Virus record (IMG/VR): IMGVR_UViG_3300032050_000189
Span: 1-52,698 of that record
Length of the DNA: 52,698 bases
Direction: 5' to 3' (one strand)
Source of the DNA: a virus
The notes under the pieces are model-generated. The model saw only the letters and a program-made list of their open reading frames with translations. It did not search any database and was not told the DNA's origin. Position numbers and translations under genes: made by a program. Below are positions 17,239 through 24,390 of this stretch, in pieces. Every line of letters starts with the position of its first letter. Positions within the stretch are counted from its first letter, which is position 1.

Positions 17239-17268
17239 TTTACTTTTAACCATGGGATCAGCTATAAC
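17239..17268 (+). promoter_or_regulatory. Early rightward promoter P1
   Basis: TTTACT and TATAAC with an 18-nt spacer. The same elements and spacing occur at 18086-18115 and 18928-18957. Here the palindrome arms that precede the other two are degenerate, although the spacer ACCCCGC is retained. It would drive the genes from 17315. Confidence 0.65.
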
Positions 17269-17546: not shown

Positions 17547-17795
17547 ATGAGTTACGAAATAGAGTACGCTGACATTGAGTCAGCAGAGACAAAGCAAAAA
17601 GCTTTGTCTGACATTAAGGACTATTGGGGCGCAACGCACTTCGATAGGGTTACTAAAGAGTTGGCTAATGATCATGGCCGATCTGGTAAACGGGCAATCT
17701 TGGTCAGCCTAATGATGTGCGGTGTGCAGGGTTATCCTGCTAGGGTGTTACTCGACACCTATTGGTCACCACAGATGCTGTTGGATCTGGAATGA
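17547..17795 (+). CDS. Small early protein
   Basis: 82 residues, acidic N-terminal half (YEIEYADIESAETKQKAL) and a helical C-terminal half (RAILVSLMMCGVQG). SD AAGGAGAGA. Overlaps the next gene by ATGA. Unrecognised. Confidence 0.55.
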   Translation: MSYEIEYADIESAETKQKALSDIKDYWGATHFDRVTKELANDHGRSGKRAILVSLMMCGVQGYPARVLLDTYWSPQMLLDLE

Positions 17796-17983
17796 CAGTC
17801 GGACAGTCCAACATCTGGCGGATGTATGTCCGCCAAGCGTTGAGGGAGGCGCTCGACGAGCGCCGTCCATTCAGCCCACTAACCTACGAAGTAGAGAAGC
17901 GAAGACTTGAACGCTTACAAGTCCAACGCGCAACGTTTTGCGCAAAGGTCGACGGCTTTGAGTTCAGCAGACTCAAACGCTAA
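17792..17983 (+). CDS. Small basic early protein
   Basis: 63 residues from ATG 17792, which overlaps the previous stop (ATGA). A longer frame starting at 17762 is less likely because it would lie inside the previous gene. Arg-rich helix (VRQALREALDERR, VEKRRLERLQVQR). Unrecognised; nucleic-acid binding is possible. Confidence 0.5.
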   Translation: MTVGQSNIWRMYVRQALREALDERRPFSPLTYEVEKRRLERLQVQRATFCAKVDGFEFSRLKR

Positions 17984-17984
17984 C

Positions 17985-18006
17985 CAATAGGGCTCCGGCC
18001 CTATTG
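17985..18006 (+). terminator. Strong hairpin without long T tract
   Basis: CAATAGGGC-TCCG-GCCCTATTG: nine perfect pairs and a four-base loop. Only ATT follows, so intrinsic termination may be weak. It marks the end of the first early cassette and abuts the repeat copy that begins at 18004. Confidence 0.55.
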
Positions 18007-18066
18007 ATACCAGTTATTTGTCGTCGCGGGCGTTAAGCGTGCGCGAGTCAAGCGGATCACTTAGCG

Positions 18067-18084
18067 TTTCACACCCCGCTGAAA
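18067..18084 (+). promoter_or_regulatory. Operator site TTTCA-N8-TGAAA, copy 1
   Basis: TTTCA at 18067-18071, eight bases CACCCCGC, TGAAA at 18080-18084; outer G/C extends the arms. It abuts the -35 at 18086, so a bound protein would touch RNA polymerase there. Confidence 0.65.
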
Positions 18085-18085
18085 C

Positions 18086-18115
18086 TTTACTTTAAGGCCT
18101 AGGGTCAGCTATAAC
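18086..18115 (+). promoter_or_regulatory. Early promoter P2
   Basis: TTTACT, 18-nt spacer, TATAAC. Same sequence frame as P1 and P3. It drives the first of two paralogous early genes. Confidence 0.7.
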
Positions 18116-18176
18116 TATTACATCAGGTAGACAGTTCGGTTTGCCTGATATTCAACCTTGCTTTATAGGAGATATT

Positions 18177-18788
18177 ATGTCTAAAGCAAAAAACCAAGCC
18201 GCCCCTTCATTGGGTTCTGTAACTGTCACTTCTATGAAGGACGCGGGTTATCAGTCAGCTATCAGCGACGAACGCAAAGATAGCGTTGCCCGTTATGTCT
18301 ATTCACAATGCCCTAACTTCACCAACGAAGTTAGCGATGAAGTTAAAACCCAGCTTCGTGCAGGTTGGGCGCTTCGTTGGCAAGAACTGAACCCCGCTGT
18401 CAGCTATAACGATAGTTGGGTTCCAGTAGAGAACGGCTCTTATGTAATGACTGTTGACGTTTGCTTCAGCTACAGTCAGCAAGCCTTCGGTCAGTTAAAA
18501 GAAGCTGACCCAGTCAAGCACGGCGTTATTAAGGGTATTCGTGATGCCTTTAATAAGTATGCTTCTAATCGAATGGCTGACTTGAAAACGGCTGTTCGTA
18601 AGGTAGAGAACGAAGGCAAGCCTAAAGTGAAAGCGCCTACCAAGGGTTTCATTCAGTACATTGATGAAACATTCAAGGCTGTCAAGGCCAGAGCTAAGAC
18701 AGCGAAAGCAAGGGGTGATGATTCAGCCCCCGATGAAGTTAAATTGCGCATGGCCATCGATGCCTTTCACAATACTCTAAGCAAGTAA
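18177..18788 (+). CDS. Early protein, paralogue 1 of 2
   Basis: 203 residues. ATG 18177 has AGGAG 6 nt upstream; an earlier frame start at 18141 has no site. It shares with the 197-residue protein at 19011 the segments DEVKTQLR-x-GWALRWQELNP, SYSQQAFGQLKEADP, KHGVIK, FNKY-x-SNR-x-ADLK and KPKVKAPTK. Soluble and charged, with no TM or Cys cluster. No family recognised. Having its own strong promoter, operator and terminator suggests an abundant early product, possibly DNA- or host-protein-binding. Confidence 0.7.
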   Translation: MSKAKNQAAPSLGSVTVTSMKDAGYQSAISDERKDSVARYVYSQCPNFTNEVSDEVKTQLRAGWALRWQELNPAVSYNDSWVPVENGSYVMTVDVCFSYSQQAFGQLKEADPVKHGVIKGIRDAFNKYASNRMADLKTAVRKVENEGKPKVKAPTKGFIQYIDETFKAVKARAKTAKARGDDSAPDEVKLRMAIDAFHNTLSK

Positions 18789-18799
18789 CATTGCACCGA

Positions 18800-18833
18800 C
18801 CTAGTCAGCCGAAAGGTTGGCTAGGTTTTTTTT
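18800..18833 (+). terminator. Rho-independent terminator
   Basis: CCTAGTCAGCC-GAAA-GGTTGGCTAGG followed by eight T. Eleven pairs (two G-U), GNRA loop. One of the clearest terminators in the window; it closes the first paralogue's cassette. Confidence 0.9.
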
Positions 18834-18908
18834 CGCCTGTAGCTTTTGATACCAGTTATGTGTCCCCGCGCGCGTCAAGGGCGTACATGCCAAGCGCACT
18901 GTTTACCG

Positions 18909-18926
18909 TTTCAGGCCACGCTGAAA
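18909..18926 (+). promoter_or_regulatory. Operator site TTTCA-N8-TGAAA, copy 2
   Basis: TTTCA, GGCCACGC, TGAAA; abuts the TTTACT at 18928, the same geometry as copy 1. Confidence 0.65.
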
Positions 18927-18927
18927 C

Positions 18928-18957
18928 TTTACTTTAAGGTCTAGGGTCGGCTATAAC
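18928..18957 (+). promoter_or_regulatory. Early promoter P3
   Basis: TTTACT, 18-nt spacer, TATAAC; nearly identical to P2 including the interval CTAGGGTC-GGC. Confidence 0.7.
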
Positions 18958-19010
18958 TTAAACACCAGATGACGAGGTGTTGTCTGGATTAACGCTTACT
19001 TGGAGAAACC

Positions 19011-19604
19011 ATGAGCAAAGCAACAAAACCCCAAGAGACAATCGTCTCATCTTTCAAAGATGCCGCATATCAATCGGCAAGGTCTAGCGAAACAATGGCC
19101 ACCATTGCTCGTTTCGTTTATGCGCAGTGCCCTACATTCTGCGAATCACAACCAGATGAGGTCAAAACTCAACTGCGCATGGGATGGGCTTTGAGATGGC
19201 AAGAGTTAAACCCTGCCACTACATTCGACAATGAATGGAAACCAAACCCCAAGGGAGGTTTTAACAATAGCATTGATTACTGCTTGTCATACTCTCAACA
19301 AGCATTTGGACAACTCAAAGAGGCAGACCCCATCAAGCACGGTGTCATCAAAGCCGTGCGTGATAACTTTAACAAGTATTGCTCTAATCGTCTGGCAGAC
19401 CTCAAAGTCGCTGTGCGCAGAGTTGAAAACGAGGATAAGCCCAAGGTCAAAGCCCCTACAAAACAATTCGAGGATTTCGCCAAAGAGTTGTTTATCACAA
19501 TGAAAGCCCGAGCAAAGACTGCCATCGCTCGAGGCGACACAACTGCACCAAACGAGATCAAATTGCGCCAAGCAATTGATGCGTTTAACAATGCTTTGAA
19601 GTAA
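19011..19604 (+). CDS. Early protein, paralogue 2 of 2
   Basis: 197 residues; paralogue of the protein at 18177, diverged mainly at the N-terminus and after the KAPTK segment. TTGGAGAAACC precedes the ATG. Unlike paralogue 1 it has Cys at FCESQPDE and at NKYCSNR. It sits directly upstream of the gene-free origin-like region, followed by its own terminator. Function unknown; two diverged copies suggest either dosage or split roles. Confidence 0.7.
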   Translation: MSKATKPQETIVSSFKDAAYQSARSSETMATIARFVYAQCPTFCESQPDEVKTQLRMGWALRWQELNPATTFDNEWKPNPKGGFNNSIDYCLSYSQQAFGQLKEADPIKHGVIKAVRDNFNKYCSNRLADLKVAVRRVENEDKPKVKAPTKQFEDFAKELFITMKARAKTAIARGDTTAPNEIKLRQAIDAFNNALK

Positions 19605-19612
19605 GCAGACCA

Positions 19613-19644
19613 TGCACCGTCAGTTTAGGCTGGCGGTGCATTTG
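19613..19644 (+). terminator. Rho-independent terminator
   Basis: ATGCACCGTCAG, loop TTTAGG, CTGGCGGTGCAT, then TT. Twelve pairs with one G-T. The T tract is short. It ends the second paralogue's transcript before the repeat region. Confidence 0.75.
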
Positions 19645-19727
19645 ATACCAGTTATAAGTCCCCGCGTGCGTGAAGTGCGTGCGCGCGAGCCAAGGCGATC
19701 AACTACCGTTTCAGGGGTGCGTGAAAT
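19643..19727 (+). repeat. Early intergenic cassette, copy 3 (promoter lost)
   Basis: TTGATACCAGTTAT, GC-rich part and operator are kept, but the TTTACT/TATAAC promoter that follows in the other copies is absent. The DnaA box begins 45 nt later. It looks like a remnant of a third cassette whose gene was lost or replaced. Confidence 0.7.
19709..19726 (+). promoter_or_regulatory. Operator site TTTCA-N8-TGAAA, copy 3
   Basis: TTTCA, GGGGTGCG, TGAAA, with no promoter behind it. If the site binds a regulator, here it may act on replication instead of transcription. Confidence 0.6.
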
Positions 19728-19771: not shown

Positions 19772-19780
19772 TGTGGATAA
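19772..19780 (-). promoter_or_regulatory. Consensus DnaA box
   Basis: TGTGGATAA on the plus strand is TTATCCACA on the minus strand, the exact consensus DnaA box. It stands at the left edge of the TTCCA/TGGAA cluster, in a gene-free stretch. Confidence 0.7.
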
Positions 19781-19789
19781 CTTTATTTG

Positions 19790-20305
19790 TTCCAAAATTC
19801 CAATTAGCGATTCCAAAGTTCCAGCCCAGTTGGAATCTTGGAATCTGACCAAAAAGCAAATTCCAATTTGGAATTCCAGTATTTGCCTCTTATGTAAAGT
19901 TGTTCCAATCTGGAACACAAAATTGGAATCTTGTAAGTGCTTGATTTTAAACAAGAAAACACCACTTTTGACCTAAAAATTCCAAAATTCCAGTTTTTTA
20001 AAATAGGACAACCGGTTGGAGAAATAATTTGGAAGAGCAAGACTGTGTCAGCAAGTGCAACGCATAGCAATATGTGGTTTTTCAGCTATTTTCTCATTTT
20101 GCCCGCCGTCCCTGCAAATCGCTGGAATCTTGGAATTTTGGAATAAATATAATTTTTTTTTTTTTTTACTACTACTACTACTCTACTCTTTATATTCATT
20201 TCATAACCTTAGTAGTACTTTTCCAGATTCCAATTCACCCCAATTTGTTCCAAAAACCCGTTCCAATAACCCCCCAAAAAGTCTAACTGTACATATCCAA
20301 TTCCA
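19790..20305. repeat. Iteron cluster TTCCA/TGGAA (about 23 copies)
   Basis: TTCCA occurs at 19790, 19798, 19811, 19819, 19861, 19874, 19903, 19980, 19988, 20221, 20228, 20248, 20261 and 20301. TGGAA occurs at 19831, 19839, 19869, 19911, 19924, 20030, 20123, 20131 and 20139. Many extend to AATTCCAA or its complement, and several pairs are 8 bp apart. About one or two copies would be expected by chance. The copies are not evenly spaced and there are no spacers of CRISPR type. Confidence 0.85.
20153..20182. repeat. T15 run followed by (ACT)5
   Basis: Fifteen consecutive T then five ACT units; TAGTAGTACT downstream (20210-20219) could pair with the ACT array. A low-melting tract within the iteron cluster, hence a candidate unwinding element. 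It is also a slippage-prone site for sequencing. Confidence 0.75.
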
Positions 20306-20363
20306 ATCCCTGTACACTACGCCCCAAGCCCCGCACCTCAACAAAGTCACCCCACACCCCTAT

Positions 20364-20389
20364 GTTTATAAGTAAAGTTATGTTACAAT
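20364..20389 (+). promoter_or_regulatory. Early promoter P4 (extended -10)
   Basis: Ends with TGTTACAAT, an extended -10. The 26-base element differs from that at 21586-21611 at only two positions, and the upstream CAACAAAGT-ACCC is also shared. The -35 is weak. It drives the 111-residue gene at 20527 after a leader of about 130 nt. Confidence 0.65.
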
Positions 20390-20467
20390 TGAGTCTGAGT
20401 CGGGGAATAAGCGCCTGCAAACCTCTCCAACTCAAGCCTTTGCCAACCCCAAGACGACCAACAATCG

Positions 20468-20485
20468 TTTCACGGGTGGGTGAAA
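20468..20485 (+). promoter_or_regulatory. Operator site TTTCA-N8-TGAAA, copy 4
   Basis: TTTCA, CGGGTGGG, TGAAA, about 42 nt before the ATG and about 80 nt after P4. In this cassette the site lies in the leader, not at the -35, so it may act as a roadblock or as an RNA hairpin. Confidence 0.6.
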
Positions 20486-20526: not shown

Positions 20527-20862
20527 ATGAAAGCTAAGTTTGTCGTCTCTCCCTCCCTCGTTGCCAAAATGCAACGTGAGATGCTCGACCATCTCCCCCG
20601 TTCTATCCGCAAGACATTGCGCATTACAACCCCCAAGGCACAACCCATTGCCAAAACACCCATCGACACAGACCAAATTGTGTCTGACTGGTTAGCGATT
20701 CACGACCCCATGAACGAGTCGCACTACTACTGCACAAACACAGTTGACCCAGCTTTTGACTTTGACGAGTTCCGCGACATCGACAACGAGTACGAGGGTC
20801 TGACAGTTGTCAGTATGGGCAAAGACACAAGACGCTGGCTCAAAGGCTACAACATCCTGTAA
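20527..20862 (+). CDS. Early protein, unrecognised
   Basis: 111 residues. Basic N-terminal half (KMQREMLDHLPRSIRKTLRI) and acidic, aromatic C-terminal half (AFDFDEFRDIDNEYEG). TTAGGAG precedes ATG 20527. It lies in a P4/operator cassette. No family recognised. Confidence 0.6.
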   Translation: MKAKFVVSPSLVAKMQREMLDHLPRSIRKTLRITTPKAQPIAKTPIDTDQIVSDWLAIHDPMNESHYYCTNTVDPAFDFDEFRDIDNEYEGLTVVSMGKDTRRWLKGYNIL

Positions 20863-21559: not shown

Positions 21560-21585
21560 CCCAACAAAGTTACCCAAAACACTTT

Positions 21586-21611
21586 GTTTATATGTAAAGT
21601 TATGGTACAAT
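21586..21611 (+). promoter_or_regulatory. Early promoter P5 (extended -10)
   Basis: Ends in TGGTACAAT, an extended -10; 24 of 26 bases equal P4. Drives the genes from 21706. Confidence 0.65.
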
Positions 21612-21616
21612 GGAAT

Positions 21617-21642
21617 CTGTGTCGGGGAGTAACTCGACACAG
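21617..21642 (+). promoter_or_regulatory. Leader hairpin after P5
   Basis: CTGTGTCG and CGACACAG are perfectly complementary around a ten-base loop. It begins six bases after the -10, at the 5' end of the transcript, where it may stabilise the message. The P4 leader has no equivalent pairing. Confidence 0.6.
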
Positions 21643-21655
21643 CCATCACTTACCG

Positions 21656-21673
21656 TTTCACGGTACGGTGAAA
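21656..21673 (+). promoter_or_regulatory. Operator site TTTCA-N8-TGAAA, copy 5
   Basis: TTTCA, CGGTACGG, TGAAA. The same distance class to the start codon as copy 4, and likewise in the leader. Confidence 0.6.
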
Positions 21674-21705: not shown

Positions 21706-21987
21706 ATGGGACAGTTCAAAAACATCGACATTGTTCTGCGTCAAATCGCAGACGACACCAACGTACATCCATCCATCCGCGATGCGATGCGCAACACATC
21801 CGTAAAGCAAGCACCTGTCGACAAAGTGTATTTGCTTCTGTGCGACGGCAATGTGACCGACGTATTCACCGACAAAGACATGGCGATGTACGACCTGCAT
21901 ACATGCATCAAGGCAGACGAGGCAGAGGGTCTTGACCATGAGTGGAAAGTCATTGTCCGTCAGCTCACAACCACAACCCTTCCATGA
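21706..21987 (+). CDS. Early protein, unrecognised
   Basis: 93 residues from ATG 21706 (AGGAG 6 nt upstream). FKNIDIVLRQIADDT, VDKVYLLLCDGNVTDVF, HEWKVIVRQL: alpha/beta character, mostly acidic. First gene of the P5 cassette, coupled to the next by ATGA. Confidence 0.6.
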   Translation: MGQFKNIDIVLRQIADDTNVHPSIRDAMRNTSVKQAPVDKVYLLLCDGNVTDVFTDKDMAMYDLHTCIKADEAEGLDHEWKVIVRQLTTTTLP

Positions 21988-23319: not shown

Positions 23320-24390
23320 ATGTCTAAAATCAATTTCAACCTGAACATTACCATCGATGACTGCGCAAACGTCATCAAGACAATCGGTAATTCAATTACT
23401 CCCATCATTGTCTCTGAGCCTGGTTGTGGCAAGTCATCAATCCTGAAGATGCTTGAAGCTGATCTCGGTACTGATGAGTATGACTTCATCTATGTCGACT
23501 GTCCTGTTAAAGATATGATGGATGTCGCGGCATCGATCCCCAACCATGCGAGCAAGACTCTTGAGTATTATGTGTCGTCTCTCTTCAAGCTAGGCAACGG
23601 CAAGAAGAAAGTCATCATGCTTGACGAGTTCATGAAGTCTCCCAAGCTATTGCAGATTATCTTCACCCGACTCATGCTCGAGCGTAGTGTTGGCGATGAA
23701 CCCCTGCCCGAGGGTAGCATCGTGTTTGGTACAAGTAACAATGCAAGCGATGGCGTAGGCGACAGCATGTTGGCTCACGTTGGTAATCGTGTGTGTATCT
23801 TGCACATGAGCAAGCCCAATGCAGAATTGTGGAACATTTGGGCGACTAAGCACAAGGTAGCTAGACCGATTCGTGCATGGGTGGCGATGACTCCCAAGGC
23901 CATGCGTAGCTATCTGGACGGTGATGAGAGCGACAACCCATATATCTTTAAACCATCATCTCCCGCACGTTCGTTCGTGTCGCCTCGTTCATTGGCGAAA
24001 GCATCTCCTATTGTGGAAGCTAAGGACATCATCGGTGAACACGCAATGATGGCGGCATTGGCAGGCACTATCGGCGAAGCGGCGGCTAAGAGTATGTCAG
24101 CGTTCATTGCACTCGAAGGCAAGTTGATCTCATTCGCTGATGTGTTGAAAGCACCGTCAACCATTAAAGTTCCTGACGATGTGTCAGCGCAAGTCATGAT
24201 GATGTTCGAGGCGGTCGACGTAGTAGAGACTCAGGATGAGCTGAACAAGTACATGCAGTTCGTTGAGCGCATTCCGTCCTCCGAAGTTCAATCCGTGTTC
24301 TTCACGATGATTATGCGCGGTAAGCCTCGCATTGCGAGATACAACCAAGCGATCAACACTTGGGCATCAAACAACCACAAGTTGATGTGA
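23320..24390 (+). CDS. MoxR-like AAA ATPase
   Basis: 356 residues. Walker A SEPGCGKSS (residues 32-40), with Ser where the first Gly of the motif is usual; Walker B VIMLDEF (about 97-103); sensor region VFGTSNNASDG (about 134-144). An Arg-containing lid region follows. The layout is that of MoxR/CobS-type AAA+ ATPases, which work with VWA proteins to remodel or activate a target or to insert metal. The VWA partner is encoded two genes downstream. Probably cytoplasmic and hexameric, by family knowledge. Confidence 0.8.
   Translation: MSKINFNLNITIDDCANVIKTIGNSITPIIVSEPGCGKSSILKMLEADLGTDEYDFIYVDCPVKDMMDVAASIPNHASKTLEYYVSSLFKLGNGKKKVIMLDEFMKSPKLLQIIFTRLMLERSVGDEPLPEGSIVFGTSNNASDGVGDSMLAHVGNRVCILHMSKPNAELWNIWATKHKVARPIRAWVAMTPKAMRSYLDGDESDNPYIFKPSSPARSFVSPRSLAKASPIVEAKDIIGEHAMMAALAGTIGEAAAKSMSAFIALEGKLISFADVLKAPSTIKVPDDVSAQVMMMFEAVDVVETQDELNKYMQFVERIPSSEVQSVFFTMIMRGKPRIARYNQAINTWASNNHKLM

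Follow-up and report, generated by a model that had tools for sequence, protein, structure and literature searches.

Why does a phage genome carry three copies of an upstream control cassette for two genes? The question is raised by IMG/VR virus record IMGVR_UViG_3300032050_000189, whose positions 1 to 52,698 (52,698 nt, the window) were analysed. A preliminary description had read the third copy as the trace of a lost gene. Our analysis points to a conserved early control module of an uncultured tailed-phage lineage, which would be served by one trans-acting factor, a reading that we hold with moderate confidence; autoregulation by the family proteins themselves is a more tentative step.

The cassette and its two genes

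Genes A and B proved to be paralogs with the lengths and coordinates first described (Table 1), sharing 65% identity over 185 aa (P0001 vs P0002, E 5e-94). The common upstream cassette was likewise confirmed: cassettes 1 and 2 (about 110 bp; 18001-18126 and 18843-18968) share 78% identity over 126 nt, compared with 44-48% (maximum 48%) in ten dinucleotide shuffles of the region. The third copy (19642-19726) indeed lacks promoter and gene, and the sequence is in keeping with each gene forming a promoter-gene-terminator unit of its own. The claim of a strong terminator after each gene held for gene A, which has a canonical one; the hairpin after gene B is equally stable and is not a canonical intrinsic terminator, because only TTTG follows it.

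In each complete cassette a box (TTGATACCAGTTATnTGTCgyCGCG) comes first, then a tract rich in G/T and GC, next a palindrome of 18 bp (TTTCA-N8-TGAAA, the operator), and last a promoter of sigma70-like type (TTTACT-18-TATAAC). The 52.7 kb contain exactly three copies of the box core, TTGATACCAGTTAT (18004, 18846 and 19642), and the + strand of the tract is skewed to G and T in all copies. The promoter motif was found three times in the window versus 0 expected in shuffles; it follows box copies 1 and 2 and is absent after copy 3. Its remaining occurrence (TTTACTT..GGNTCAGCTATAAC, 17239-17268) lies before the first small gene (17315), with neither box nor operator. A plain sigma70 scan missed the promoters of genes A and B because their -10 element ends in C; these predicted promoters are supported instead by position-specific conservation.

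Table 1. Coordinates of the features discussed, in the window unless a relative is named
Feature	Position	Strand	Remarks
Box 1 (TTGATACCAGTTATTTGTCGTCGCG)	18004..18028	+	Exact repeat in window; conserved upstream of relatives' family genes
G/T- and GC-rich tract, copy 1	18029..18062	+	Composition skew; variable sequence
Operator palindrome 1 (TTTCACACCCCGCTGAAA)	18067..18084		
Putative sigma70-like promoter of gene A (TTTACT-18-TATAAC)	18086..18115	+	Same place in relatives
Gene A	18177..18788	+	Family protein, 203 aa
Intrinsic terminator of gene A	18798..18835	+	-21.6 kcal/mol, eight-T run
Box 2	18846..18870	+	Exact repeat in window
Operator palindrome 2	18909..18926		
Putative promoter of gene B	18928..18957	+	Repeat of promoter motif
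Gene B	19011..19604	+	197 aa, paralog of A
Hairpin after gene B	19612..19641	+	-22.0 kcal/mol, then only TTTG, no U-tract
Box 3, terminal and gene-less	19642..19666	+	Exact repeat; present in relatives and whole records
Operator palindrome 3	19709..19726		No promoter behind
DnaA box (TTATCCACA)	19772..19780	-	Only one in window; 46 bp behind operator 3
AT-rich TTCCAA/TTGGAA iteron-like region, putative replication origin	19785..20300		
Operator without box	20468..20485		Before gene 20527-20862; kept in 9/10 orthologues
Operator without box	21656..21673		Before gene 21706-21987; kept in 11/12 homologues
Operator variant ATTCA-N8-TGAAA	23282..23299		Before ATPase gene 23320-24390
Box-led genes of the 154-162 aa family, in relatives	L041 3738-4202; L087 5491; L124 3986; L130 8078; L134 8313; L050 4701; L056 4028; L080 3810		

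The cassette does not behave as an RNA element: RNAalifold gave an empty consensus fold on both strands for 56 diverse elements, and Rfam gave no match at the gathering score, so this reading was rejected. An IHF-like reading of the box was also rejected, since its flanks, judged by eye, do not conserve an IHF-like site. By sequence comparison, the 25-bp box is better conserved than the proteins apparently under its control, across dozens of distinct uncultured phages. As the best-conserved part of the cassette it might be bound by a second factor, an activator or a nucleoprotein organiser, although this is a guess.

Gene-less boxes in relatives and the putative origin

We surveyed IMG/VR for relatives by profile searches with the protein family (46 loci) and by a scan with the box alone (105 stretches). 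The combined set held 184 family proteins of full length, part of them from loci that overlap, with 111 distinct sequences and 62 representatives below about 88% similarity. A box preceded the gene in 119 of 120 distinct family-gene upstream regions (at most 3 mismatches in 18 letters), and a gene-less box followed the last gene in 70 of the 71 phages with enough sequence (at most 4 mismatches in 18); random 250-nt stretches mostly gave 7-9 mismatches. When only the protein had been used to pick loci, so that the box could not bias the selection, the upstream box was present in 58/58 and the terminal box in 33/34. The exception is L098/L049, where an extra gene intervenes after the last family gene and the box comes after it. 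Whole records (17-18 contigs, up to 70.7 kb) carried two boxes per one gene and three per two genes, and almost none elsewhere (two weak 3-mismatch hits); a reversed-pattern control gave 1 hit in 18 whole records.

Across the family in related IMG/VR contigs the rule is thus n genes and n+1 boxes. The terminal box is also present in phages with a single family gene, the terminal copy retains a palindrome of the same kind, and in no relative examined was a family gene found behind the terminal box. Copy 3 is consequently not the remnant that the preliminary description took it for: although within the window alone a box and operator lacking promoter and gene look like a relic, a gene-less copy conserved in box and palindrome in 70 of 71 phages, among them those with a single gene, makes loss of a gene highly improbable. 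The gene-less copy belongs to the layout as a fixed element, a conserved architecture.

The box precedes more than one kind of gene. An unrelated family of 154-162 aa (ending ..SPTCKxV..) is likewise led by this box and is encoded upstream of the main family (Table 1), and single box-led genes without a match to the family profile encode 276 aa (L104 7996-8826) and 242 aa (L085 6320). The box-gene-box layout of L104 is that of other loci, and these two genes are possibly very distant family members.

In the window, 500 bp of the iteron-like region behind the terminal box hold 21 TTCCA/TGGAA at a GC content of 0.30-0.38. In 53 distinct phages, the 600 bp behind the terminal box held a median of 18 TTCCA/TGGAA, where the remainder of the locus predicts 1.2, at a GC content of 0.36 versus 0.48; the iteron-like region follows the terminal box in most of these phages, and a minority of clades have other repeats. 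By its anatomy this region is probably an iteron-type origin, and the terminal box probably belongs to it because it lies beside the iteron-like AT-rich region and the window's only consensus DnaA box. Most relatives have no DnaA box at this site, and the minimum of the GC skew, at 22.6 kb, fits an origin at the terminal box only roughly. Within the putative origin, a T run followed by (ACT)n (window 20157-20190) may vary in length between relatives.

The palindrome outside the cassettes

Six exact matches to TTTCA-N8-TGAAA occurred in the 5.2-kb region, against a shuffle mean of 0.015 and a maximum of 2. Besides the cassette copies, operators without a box precede neighbouring genes (Table 1); across the orthologues of these early genes, the site is 20-60 nt away from the start codon. 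Among homologues of the gene at 21706, the operator arms are constant and the inner bases change in pairs. The operator was found before 7/30 orthologues of the ATPase gene and 11/37 of a DUF3150-like gene, compared with 1/26 for the VWA gene, which served as a control, and 2.7% of windows chosen at random. A repeated promoter block (20351-20410 and 21573-21632; 83% identity over 60 nt; TGTTTATAAGTAAAGTTATGnTACAAT) precedes both box-less operators.

Some clades carry a different palindrome, which the gene and terminal cassettes of a single phage then have in common: ATTCGGATCGATCCGAAT (ATTCGG..CCGAAT) in L113, CTTCAG-N6-CTGAAG in L070, TTCCA..TGGAA in L103 and TTTCAG..GCGAAA in L124. A permutation test on automatically called palindromes gave 6.2 of 10 arm bases within phages versus 5.2 (maximum of 2000 permutations, 6.0), a difference partly confounded by phage relatedness and drawn from noisy palindrome calls. 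Operator sites present either strand of their inner bases towards the gene and occur in the apparently untranscribed terminal cassette as well; for these two reasons the palindrome is more readily taken as the target of a DNA-binding dimer than as an RNA hairpin. Its presence upstream of several early genes makes it a predicted early regulon site. It recurs without the box in front of early and replication genes nearby, so that a single trans-acting factor probably governs these genes together with the family genes and the edge of the origin.

The module has the layout [box - G/T-rich tract - palindromic operator - sigma70 promoter - monocistronic gene - hairpin] x n, with one further [box - tract - operator] capping the putative iteron-type origin. 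A dimeric regulator would bind the palindrome: at the promoters of cassettes 1 and 2, where the operator abuts the -35 element, as a roadblock in the leaders at 20468 and 21656, and at the origin edge through copy 3.

Candidate regulators and the history of the array

The family proteins are basic (pI about 9.2-9.3, median 9.2), and distant members share 21-35% identity. An AlphaFold2 model built on a 64-sequence alignment was all-helical (pLDDT 91, pTM 0.71). The proteins matched nothing in Pfam, PHROGs or the sequences of solved PDB structures, and Foldseek returned nothing from PDB or BFVD, a set of viral predicted structures (E >= 0.3). No DNA-binding, Rep or winged-helix initiator fold was recognised in Pfam, PDB or BFVD, and the best VIA-align hit (Z 4.7, HIV capsid helices) is uninformative for a helical protein. 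A ribbon-helix-helix reading of residues 85-130 was rejected, since the model has a helix-helix-long helix there and no RHH-type match was obtained. The lack of a match to the predicted fold does not prove a new one. A search of 50,697 phage records turned up no family member, and 84,980 bacterial and archaeal genomes, searched for prophage or host signal, yielded neither the family nor the box.

A 42-residue helix-helix-long-helix motif is common to the family and to proteins of 65-85 aa (hhalign 97%, E 5.6e-11), which in many relatives are encoded just upstream of the family genes. To the left of box 1 lies a hypervariable slot (window 17547-17983; L005 5606-5803; L007 3671-3874) with differing small genes in close relatives, and several of the small genes left of box 1 carry this 42-aa motif.

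We tentatively propose that the family proteins make up the palindrome-binding factor, wholly or in part, and that they repress the promoters of their own genes and also act at the origin; linkage, charge and constancy make them the best candidates. Alternatively, the palindrome is bound by another protein, the product of another phage gene or a host repressor, and the family are strongly made early effectors, for example in host take-over or anti-defence, that use a common cassette. This is a real possibility, short of an even chance: the box also precedes the unrelated genes described above, and the family evolves fast and duplicates often, as effectors do. However, a family gene is part of nearly every box array and, also where it is the only one, stands next to the origin-like region, and no other regulator gene is linked to the module as consistently. 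A bolder form of the autoregulatory reading, in which these are an undescribed family of origin-binding regulators with a new all-helical fold, genes and origin stand under one modular element and the expandable array amplifies or exchanges genes beside the origin, seems unlikely to hold in full.

Repeated duplication, also part of the first account, is borne out by a maximum-likelihood tree of 83 proteins, in which at least five separate origins of paralog pairs can be told apart (the window clade, L070/L123, L072/L078/L079/L127, L099 and L151); for other pairs (L038/L039/L040/L084 and L051/L052) the split is older and lies deep in the tree. The paralogs would have arisen by repeated tandem duplication of the box-to-box unit, for which the direct boxes flanking each gene offer unequal crossing-over as an obvious route. 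Such boxes might instead be mainly sites of recombination or exchange, through which early genes are duplicated and swapped, the terminal copy being the right-hand repeat of the array. Recurrent duplication and the n+1 layout would fit, as would close relatives that differ in the genes left of box 1 yet are conserved from the box onwards. We nevertheless consider this quite improbable, given that none of the window genes tested was recognised as a recombinase and that the terminal copy keeps its operator and its fixed place before the iteron-like region, neither of which a mere repeat boundary needs.

The control module we favour resembles known arrangements in part. Iteron origins of plasmids and phages combine AT-rich repeats and a DnaA box beside an autoregulated initiator gene with an inverted-repeat operator, and the Rep protein of iteron plasmids controls its own gene. 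The module likewise has AT-rich repeats and an adjacent gene, with an operator both in the family genes' own promoters (18067 and 18909) and at the origin region (19709), as in relatives; the window also has a DnaA box there, which most relatives lack. It differs in that the operator is distinct from the TTCCAA repeats, no Rep fold is recognised and the control cassette is present in n+1 copies.

The SAS/ESAS elements of cluster K mycobacteriophages, where a 13-bp sequence (GGGATAGGAGCCC) lies at translation starts in 11-19 copies per genome, are likewise short conserved repeats accompanied by imperfect inverted repeats before some of the phage's genes (PMC3203893). The box is not such an element, as sequence, position and copy number differ: here 2-4 boxes lie upstream of promoters, with one gene-less at the putative origin. 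Stoperators of cluster A mycobacteriophages are similar in being a repressor-type site repeated across a phage genome, some downstream of promoters (PMC9283540). Those are asymmetric immunity-repressor sites in temperate phages (PMC9283540), whereas the site here is palindromic and clustered in the early region, and the 84,980 bacterial and archaeal genomes gave no relative.

Judged by DNA polymerase (34-35% identity), the closest phages in culture are Kochitakasuvirus (Pseudomonas phage KPP25) and Rhizobium phage RHph_TM3_14A, and their corresponding regions contain no box, operator or family member. The literature on repeated promoter cassettes with paralogs yielded nothing closer. What we describe is a protein family without a known relative and a new cis-element, set in a known kind of arrangement of repeated operators and autoregulated, origin-linked genes. 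From the module, both an early regulon and an origin are predicted for phages that are not represented in culture.
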